Shown piece after piece: positions 14,343-34,206 of a DNA stretch of 64,000 nt (position 1 is the stretch's first letter; each line of letters begins with the position of its first letter). Source of the DNA: a bacterium (GTDB taxonomy: Bacteria; Patescibacteriota; Microgenomatia; UBA1406; GWC2-37-13); contig JAKAHA010000002.1 in the NCBI GenBank assembly GCA_021825445.1, forward strand, positions 50,461 to 114,460. Direction: 5' to 3'. The notes below the pieces were generated by a model. It was not told the origin of the DNA and ran no database searches. It worked only from the letters and a program-made list of their open reading frames with translations. Made by a program: the position numbers and the translations under genes.

Positions 14343-14362
14343 TGGTGCAATTTATTACACCA
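14343..14362. repeat. 20-bp palindrome shared with 34283-34302
   Basis: TGGTGCAATTTATTACACCA; the reverse strand of 34283-34302 reads TGGTGTGATTTATCACACCA, and the flanks (agt before, gaat/gaaat after) also match. The following bases gaatcgttccgctac recur near 60518. The location is 60-80 bp upstream of small orphan genes in each case. Confidence 0.65.
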
Positions 14363-14391: not shown

Positions 14392-14420
14392 TTGAAAAGT
14401 AGTAGTAGTAGTAGTAGAAT
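14392..14420 (+). promoter_or_regulatory. Promoter with AGT trinucleotide repeat spacer
   Basis: TTGAAA at 14392 and TAGAAT at 14415 are separated by exactly 17 bp that consist only of agt repeats (agtagtagtagtagtag). Six bases separate the -10 from the ATG, so the mRNA is predicted to start at the ATG. Gain or loss of one unit would change the spacer to 20 or 14 bp. Confidence 0.7.
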
Positions 14421-14426
14421 GCCCAA

Positions 14427-14681
14427 ATGAGCTTAAAAATAATTTCTGAAAAATTACAACAAGATATGGGCTGGGGTAGGAAAGAAGGTCAAGGTTATAT
14501 CGGTTTATTTAATGAAAGAAAAATTAAATATCTTGCTCCAACGCCAAAAGAATTTCATCAGATGAAGGCTCTCGATTTTATCGCTGCACTCACATACAAA
14601 GAAATTTCTAAAGCCGTTGCAGCCGGAGTTGTAATAGGTGGATTTGCTATACCAATTGCACGAGGTTTATTAGGTCTTTAA
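14427..14681 (+). CDS. Orphan small protein with C-terminal hydrophobic helix (84 aa)
   Basis: Not recognised. The N-terminal part is polar (ISEKLQQDMGWGRKEGQGYIG), followed by KEISKAVAAGVVIGGFAIPIARGLLGL, a Gly/Ala-rich hydrophobic helix that could insert in a membrane. The start is fixed by the promoter 6 nt upstream. It belongs to a set of four orphan genes (also 15513, 33413, 33912) with closely similar leaderless promoters. Confidence 0.6.
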   Translation: MSLKIISEKLQQDMGWGRKEGQGYIGLFNERKIKYLAPTPKEFHQMKALDFIAALTYKEISKAVAAGVVIGGFAIPIARGLLGL

Positions 14682-14744: not shown

Positions 14745-14772
14745 ATGTCTAGTTAATTAATTAACTAGACAT
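14745..14772. promoter_or_regulatory. Perfect 28-bp palindrome at the 3' end of the TrpR-like gene
   Basis: The centre is CTAGTTAATTAATTAACTAG and the symmetry extends to ATGT...ACAT over 28 bp without mismatch. It contains the stop codon of the regulator gene. It matches the upstream palindrome at 15207-15234 in 25 of 28 positions and carries CTAG half-sites like those of the E. coli trp operator. Confidence 0.7.
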
Positions 14773-15205
14773 CAATCATTTTCTGTTCTTTCTTTCTCTT
14801 TTCACGCTGCCACTCAAGATCACGGTCATGGTAATAGCCAACATGCGTAAACAAATCTGCAAATAAGTTTTCAAAAAAATGACTTATTTTTTCACTTTTT
14901 AAAAATGATTCTATGACTGTTATTAACCTCGTCTTCTTTTTATAAAACAATAAATTAAATTTTCCGACTGTGGCTCGAGATACCTTAATATGTTGTGCAA
15001 TCTCGACCTGCTCGACATTTTTTATAAGTAAATAGATGATTGCGATTCGCTTTGCAATCATTATCTGCTCAACCGGAGTCAGAATATCTTGAATGAGTTC
15101 CATAAACTCATCTTTGTCCCCAGCGTTATTAACAACCTCAAAAAATAATTGATAAAGCTTGAAAAGCTTTTCCTCATCTACAGGTCTTTTTGATATGTTT
15201 ACCAT
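14765..15205 (-). CDS. TrpR/YerC-like helix-turn-helix regulator
   Basis: The 146-aa protein contains DILTPVEQIMIAKRIAIIYLLIKNVEQVEIAQHIKVSRATVGKFN (residues about 41-86), the helical core and HTH of the Trp repressor superfamily (YerC/YecD type): LT..E...i..R..i...L......q.eIa..l.vS.aTv.r. The remainder extends TrpR by a C-terminal helical, highly charged tail (HDRDLEWQREKRKKEQK). The gene is bracketed by near-identical palindromes, one 1 bp upstream of the ATG and one overlapping the stop, suggesting autoregulation (inference). No trp biosynthesis gene is nearby. Confidence 0.85.
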   Translation of the reverse strand: MVNISKRPVDEEKLFKLYQLFFEVVNNAGDKDEFMELIQDILTPVEQIMIAKRIAIIYLLIKNVEQVEIAQHIKVSRATVGKFNLLFYKKKTRLITVIESFLKSEKISHFFENLFADLFTHVGYYHDRDLEWQREKRKKEQKMIDV

Positions 15206-15206
15206 A

Positions 15207-15234
15207 ATGTACAGTTAATTAATTAACTAGTCAT
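15207..15234. promoter_or_regulatory. Palindromic operator candidate at the TrpR-like gene start
   Basis: The core AGTTAATTAATTAACT is perfect; the outer ATG...CAT also pairs, with three mismatched positions between. It abuts the start codon of the regulator gene (15205), an ideal position to block transcription or initiation. Confidence 0.7.
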
Positions 15235-15479: not shown

Positions 15480-15508
15480 TTGAAAAGAAGAAGAAGAAGT
15501 AATATTTA
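15480..15508 (+). promoter_or_regulatory. Promoter with AGA trinucleotide repeats in the spacer
   Basis: TTGAAA, 17 bp (agaagaagaagaagtaa), TATTTA, then 4 nt to the ATG at 15513. It resembles the promoter at 14392 in layout and in repeat-filled spacer. Confidence 0.5.
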
Positions 15509-15512
15509 GTAA

Positions 15513-16031
15513 ATGTCAAACGAAACATCAAATAAAACTGATTTTAGTCCCGATCAATTAAGTTCAGAAAATAGAAAAGTATTTGAAGATTTTTACGCTT
15601 TGACCGGAAAAATTCAGGCCGAATACGTTTCAAGTCCTGTTGGAGTTGGTTGGAAAAAACCTAGTCAATTTGATGTTTCAACTACTCAAGAGATAATGAA
15701 TAAAATTGATTCTAAATTTGGGACACAACTTTTGACAAAAAAACCAGAGGAAATCGATGCAATATTAATAGAAGAACTTGCGTTAAGTTATAAGGAATCA
15801 CCGTTGGACAAGGCCTTGTTGAATCCATTTACAAAAGGATTAATTGGAGAATCAATAATCGTCGATGGTATTACCTCTGATAGATCTTATTTTTTTAATA
15901 CTAATATTAAAGGAGTTATGTTACATATTGAAAGATTGAATATTATGCGCAGAGGACACAATGCCACTGTAGTGCAGTCAACTTTAATCGGATCAAGTAA
16001 CCCAATTTTAAAACCAAAAGTAACTACTTGA
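15513..16031 (+). CDS. Orphan hypothetical protein (172 aa)
   Basis: Not recognised. It has no signal peptide or membrane span. The N-terminus is polar and Ser/Asn rich (MSNETSNKTDFSPDQ); the middle contains KPEEIDAILIEELALSYKESPLDKALLNPFTKG and the end a basic segment RLNIMRRGHNATVVQSTLIGSSNP. It converges tail to tail with lon, with 1 bp between stops. Its leaderless promoter resembles those of the other orphan genes. Confidence 0.6.
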   Translation: MSNETSNKTDFSPDQLSSENRKVFEDFYALTGKIQAEYVSSPVGVGWKKPSQFDVSTTQEIMNKIDSKFGTQLLTKKPEEIDAILIEELALSYKESPLDKALLNPFTKGLIGESIIVDGITSDRSYFFNTNIKGVMLHIERLNIMRRGHNATVVQSTLIGSSNPILKPKVTT

Positions 16032-33911: not shown

Positions 33912-34169
33912 TTATCGTCTAAATACACCAATTAGTCTAATAGGTTCATTTTCGCTTGCGTTTGTTTTAGGTTCCCTGTAATATGGCTTCCCATCGAGTT
34001 GATAAACCATATTTATGGTTTGATGTAATTCTTCTGAACCACGCAAAGTTGCAAACACACCTATTGCAATTCGCGTTATTAAAAATCTCTGGAACCAACC
34101 TCTTTCCGTGAGCAGATTACGAAATTGCACCGCTTTACGTTCTCCGTTACTTTCTCCTTGTTGAGGCAT
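33912..34169 (-). CDS. Orphan small protein (85 aa)
   Basis: Not recognised. It is rich in Arg and Glu with one moderately hydrophobic stretch (RFLITRIAIGVFATL) followed by a polar C-terminal part (YQLDGKPYYREPK). The phrase DGKxYY is shared with the 92-aa orphan at 33413 (VDGKLYYDS), hinting at a common fold. It is transcribed from an AGT-spacer promoter 8 nt upstream. Confidence 0.55.
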   Translation of the reverse strand: MPQQGESNGERKAVQFRNLLTERGWFQRFLITRIAIGVFATLRGSEELHQTINMVYQLDGKPYYREPKTNASENEPIRLIGVFRR

Positions 34170-34177
34170 ACAACTAA

Positions 34178-34206
34178 ATTGTACTGCTACTACTATTACT
34201 TGTCAA
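34178..34206 (-). promoter_or_regulatory. Promoter with AGT-type spacer for the 85-aa orphan gene
   Basis: TTGACA, 17 bp (agtaatagtagtagcag), TACAAT, 8 nt, ATG. The spacer is a degenerate version of the perfect AGT array at 14398-14414. Confidence 0.65.

Follow-up and report, generated by a model that had tools for sequence, protein, structure and literature searches.

The promoter at 14392 in the window, by which we mean the whole 64,000-nucleotide stretch of DNA that was analysed, belongs to a class with the form TTGAMA-(NAG)n-TANAAT (N = T, A or G), of which its own genome holds about 14 members, interrupted arrays included. We consider it probable (roughly 0.6) that these are sigma70-type leaderless promoters with slippable trinucleotide spacers, and that they form a set of ON/OFF contingency loci.

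The original prediction had placed TTGAAA and TAGAAT 17 bp apart, with a spacer made entirely of AGT repeats, and this was confirmed on the sequence (Table 1). The promoter and the leaderless position of the ORF behind it were also well supported; the non-repeat promoters of the genome share the 17-bp spacing near an ATG. When the window was searched with a looser promoter pattern, two matches were obtained, at 14392 and at 34206 on the minus strand, against none in 100 dinucleotide-preserving shuffles. In the whole own genome, AGT repeats reaching 14 nt or more occurred at three places only, and all three had TTGAMA before the run, TAGAAT after it, and an ATG 6-7 nt beyond. The 84-aa ORF resembled real genes in codon usage, and a homologue of its protein was sought in 56 relatives and was not found. 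Because the array is short (20 nt), its slip rate could be low.

Table 1. Promoters, ORFs and neighbouring features located in the window.
Feature	Position	Strand	Remark
-35 hexamer TTGAAA	14392..14397	+	sequence; family consensus TTGAMA
17-bp spacer AGTAGTAGTAGTAGTAG, AGT/TAG array without interruption	14398..14414	+	sequence; repeat run 14398-14417
-10 hexamer TAGAAT	14415..14420	+	sequence; family consensus TANAAT
GCCCAA between TAGAAT and ATG	14421-14426	+	
84-aa orphan ORF, ATG 14427	14427..14681	+	leaderless position: start 6 nt after -10
Inverted repeat GGTGCAATTTATTACACC upstream of the 14392 promoter	14344..14361		recurs upstream of other NAG promoters
TrpR-like regulator (Pfam Trp_repressor)	14765..15205	-	Pfam match; multi-copy family
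Second promoter: TTGAAA, 14-bp AAG spacer, TAATAT	15480..15505	+	missed in the original prediction
172-aa orphan ORF behind the second promoter	15513..16031	+	
Third promoter: TTGACA, interrupted 17-bp spacer AGTAATAGTAGTAGCAG, TACAAT	34178..34206	-	missed in the original prediction
85-aa ORF behind the third promoter	33912..34169	-	

The own genome was read in stretches covering 961,945 of its 1,022,352 bases (94%). This part contained 11 pure trinucleotide runs that were 15 nt or longer, and 10 of them were spacers of TTGAMA...TA-box promoters; one of the ten, the C19 run, was recognised by eye and then confirmed by a later scan. An uninterrupted simple repeat between -35 and -10, as in promoter-spacer repeat loci of the hif/porA kind, was thus present. 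The repeat unit on the coding strand was always NAG, namely TAG, AAG or GAG. An ORF started 6-11 nt after the -10 hexamer in 12 of the 14 NAG promoters, and the other two (C10 12289 and C8 3400) had an ATG farther downstream. A relaxed promoter scan gave no match on reversed or shuffled sequence. Self-BLAST of the assembly for strain duplicates returned short overlaps, and no second copy of any array locus was recognised among them.

The eleventh run, a 29-nt (AAG) array in contig C28 (L104 2385-2440), was not a spacer. It lay directly upstream of a TTGACA-18-TATATT promoter, and the protein behind this promoter looks secreted. Its position upstream of a -35 hexamer, unlike that of the class members, resembles that of the GAA arrays of vlhA genes. 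Units of 7 bp in four tandem copies were also scattered over the genome (L059 15913 and 17650, L061 9319, L067 1849, L073 4629 and L074 4334).

Non-repeat leaderless promoter candidates in the own genome numbered 14, 50 and 18 at spacers of 16, 17 and 18 bp, and about 5-6 in most other bins, with a single case at 14 bp and four at 20 bp; a reversed control gave near zero. Since these candidates peak sharply at 17 bp, a 17-bp rule appears to hold for the promoters of this genome. A motif scan of the own genome found one clear case of RpoD-type region 4.2.

In a catalogue of arrays that was assembled after the pattern was noticed, includes some homologous entries and has a few ambiguous -10 boxes (L023, L025), pure NAG arrays gave spacers of 11, 14, 17, 20, 23, 26 and 38 bp in 6, 11, 7, 8, 4, 2 and 1 cases, respectively, and a 17-bp spacer was found in 7/39 pure arrays versus 7/9 interrupted ones (P = 0.0012). 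AAG arrays were at 17 bp in 2 of about 22 cases, and several arrays were short (12-20 nt). Because pure arrays vary in length and interrupted arrays are mostly at 17 bp, we read the catalogue as suggesting that slippable arrays drift in 3-bp steps while unslippable ones stay at the working length. MutS/MutL motifs were not found in a motif scan of 94% of the genome, whereas RecA and UvrA were; such an absence would favour slippage. Counting against contingency loci, the predicted working length is missed by the majority of pure arrays and by almost every AAG array. At these arrays the length could be irrelevant, or the promoters could be dead.

The proposed switch would work as follows. A 17-bp spacer would permit transcription, and gain or loss of one triplet would change it to 20 or 14 bp and largely abolish transcription, until slippage back restored both the length and the activity. 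As a set of contingency loci, the promoters would generate random combinations of small orphan proteins across the population, some of them beside a TrpR-like regulator. Slippage as the cause, ON/OFF control by spacer length and a benefit from switching are the parts that we infer.

Spacer lengths varied in 3-bp steps within the family as a whole, and also when homologous genes were compared. Between lon and the TrpR-like gene, the own genome has TTGAAA-14-TAATAT and another genome of the genus (G016) has TTGAAA-17-TAATAT, the 17-bp spacer carrying one GAG interruption; the small ORFs behind the promoter differ between the two genomes. Members of a small-protein family with the signature KKPxxC...IHKPHCK..PH have a 14-bp spacer in G014 and a 20-bp spacer in G016, both directly after the same upstream gene, and elsewhere a 20-bp spacer in G015 and an 11-bp spacer at a second G016 locus. 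In a further pair of proteins, 25% identical, one is preceded by a 14-bp spacer with a TAG array and the other by a 20-bp spacer with an AAG array. Repeat number therefore differed in unit steps between species and between paralogues, and an invariant spacer length, which had been named beforehand as the outcome that would speak against phase variation, was not seen when loci and species were compared. The comparison with related genomes, suggested as a check alongside the original prediction, thus favours that interpretation, which is supported in part.

The main rival is neutral microsatellite drift, by which the spacers of dispensable or rarely needed orphan genes would slip without benefit and off-length copies would be decayed promoters. 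We consider it rather unlikely as the explanation, although the majority of pure arrays away from 17 bp would suit it, and so would downstream genes that are orphans without homologues. The 172-aa protein behind the second promoter of the window had no homologue among the 56 relatives, 10 own-genome proteins behind NAG promoters gave no significant Pfam or PHROG match, and the proteins encoded behind promoters of the class are for the most part unrelated to one another. Drift at dispensable genes, however, does not fit well with the state of these genes. Behind off-length spacers the reading frames are open and the genes mostly intact: by codon usage, most downstream ORFs fell among real genes, including most of those behind 14-, 20-, 26- and 38-bp spacers. 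Lower scores were obtained at 34169 in the window and in L076, L112 and L135, which were still above 88-96% of spurious ORFs. The near confinement of long trinucleotide runs to these promoter spacers also argues against drift, as does the recurrence of the class in several genera, described below.

One relative has a NAG promoter before a radical-SAM/SPASM protein, and the one small-protein family that has homologues was predicted to fold into three helices (mean pLDDT 81), a structure for which no significant PDB match was obtained. In contig C6 of the own genome (L068 5415-6060), two NAG-promoter genes are separated by a pair of small ORFs resembling an antitoxin and a PIN-type toxin.

Among 373 genomes of the taxonomic class, the architecture gave 22 matches in 10 genomes, against one in the reversed control. 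In a phylum sample of 287 genomes, 263 of them outside the taxonomic class, the own genome was the sole match, so that no NAG-spacer promoter was found in 263 Patescibacteria from other classes. In G016, of which 467 kb were read, 6 of 8 long trinucleotide runs were spacers and 11 promoters belonged to the NAG class. Named records with the architecture came from Roizmanbacteria, Woesebacteria and a Microgenomates bin; an Amesbacteria record shows it as well, but with an ambiguous -10. Outside the phylum, TTGACAAG(TAG)n precedes a shared gene in two rumen Bacteroidales (L033 7260, minus strand, and L037 5844; proteins 82% identical), and the two runs differ by one unit. This is an independent change in repeat number, in a promoter that is not clearly of the NAG kind. 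Viral contigs were considered as carriers and rejected, as we took the 9 matches for coding sequence of two families of phage genes; the single TAG match among them is L022.

A second alternative is that the promoters tolerate different lengths and are regulated, the NAG array itself serving as a DNA-shape element or a binding site, which the neighbouring TrpR-like protein may use, and expression being tuned, not switched, by repeat number. One line of support is the neighbourhood of the regulator. Across the own genome and G016, a NAG promoter is present within 0.7 kb of each of the six genes in the close subfamily to which the TrpR-like gene of the window belongs (one of the six is a remnant, and one lies beside a degenerate array at C2), compared with 0/6 distant paralogues (P = 0.002). 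The restriction of the unit to NAG points in the same direction, and repeats that act together with a repressor are known from Neisseria nadA, where a TAAA repeat upstream of the core promoter alters operator spacing, with NadR (PMC2791445). The likeness to nadA/NadR lies in the combination of a repeat-bearing promoter and a regulator; here the TrpR-like protein is known only as a neighbour. Most NAG promoters of the own genome, however, have no TrpR-like gene nearby, the other promoters of the genome obey the 17-bp spacing, and interrupted arrays return to it. We therefore hold length tolerance to be doubtful, and less probable than drift.

Palindromes on CTAGTTAATTAATTAACTAG were noted at both ends of the TrpR-like gene (window 14745-14772 and 15210-15233). 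Because the upstream one is identical in G016 and resembles the trp operator, it may be an autoregulatory site. The inverted repeat GGTGCAATTTATTACACC is a candidate terminator or operator. Another inverted repeat, TTACACC...GGTGTA, was seen at window 34248 (minus), L059 3801, L068 6536 (minus) and L063 4984 in the own genome, and in L043; it stands upstream of TAG-type promoters at three of the four own-genome places, plus one in G016. A mobile cassette was rejected, as shared inverted repeats were present upstream of only some members and a cassette boundary was not found.

The DnaA-trio motif is matched by TAG and AAG, and the resemblance led us to consider an unwinding element of a replication origin. 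This has a negligible chance of being correct, given about 14 scattered copies each placed before an ORF and between -35 and -10 hexamers, the existence of GAG arrays, and the absence of a DnaA box, with up to one mismatch allowed, from the 100 bp upstream. A Shine-Dalgarno function was likewise rejected, because the arrays are upstream of the -10 hexamer and TAG does not pair with the anti-SD.

Phase variation through promoter spacers occurs at Haemophilus influenzae hifA/hifB, with TA repeats, and at Neisseria porA/opc, with homopolymers. As at those loci, a simple repeat lies here between -35 and -10 and its number of units sets the spacing. The present loci differ in their trinucleotide NAG units, in their number per reduced genome, in their leaderless orphan genes and in their CPR host, and switching is a prediction here. 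Spacer repeats as a mechanism of phase variation have been stated in general form (PMC2791445). The vlhA genes of Mycoplasma gallisepticum provide a second likeness, a variable trinucleotide array at many promoters of one small genome (PMC6258824). The vlhA (GAA)n array, however, lies about 40 nt upstream of the start, with no conserved sigma70 promoter, and the vlhA genes are one lipoprotein family (PMC6258824), whereas the arrays described here are spacers flanked by TTGAMA and TANAAT, and the genes behind them are unrelated. No report of promoter phase variation in CPR bacteria was found in the literature searched, the one close match being on a coding repeat that is hypervariable in a Gracilibacterium (PMC6851277). 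The kind of mechanism is already known; what is new, as far as we found, is the scale, the NAG units, the leaderless orphan genes and the CPR setting.

A broader proposal, which we put forward tentatively, is that some Microgenomates possess a dedicated contingency system. In it, numerous leaderless promoters with NAG spacers, controlling fast-evolving small proteins and arranged partly around a TrpR-like subfamily, might stochastically vary the interaction proteins of an ultra-small, probably host-dependent bacterium. For the contingency loci themselves, the reading makes a direct prediction, which can be checked in existing metagenomic reads for over a dozen loci together. If it is true, it would point to a set of small unknown proteins that these bacteria vary, which would be candidates for contact with a host, a phage or a competitor.
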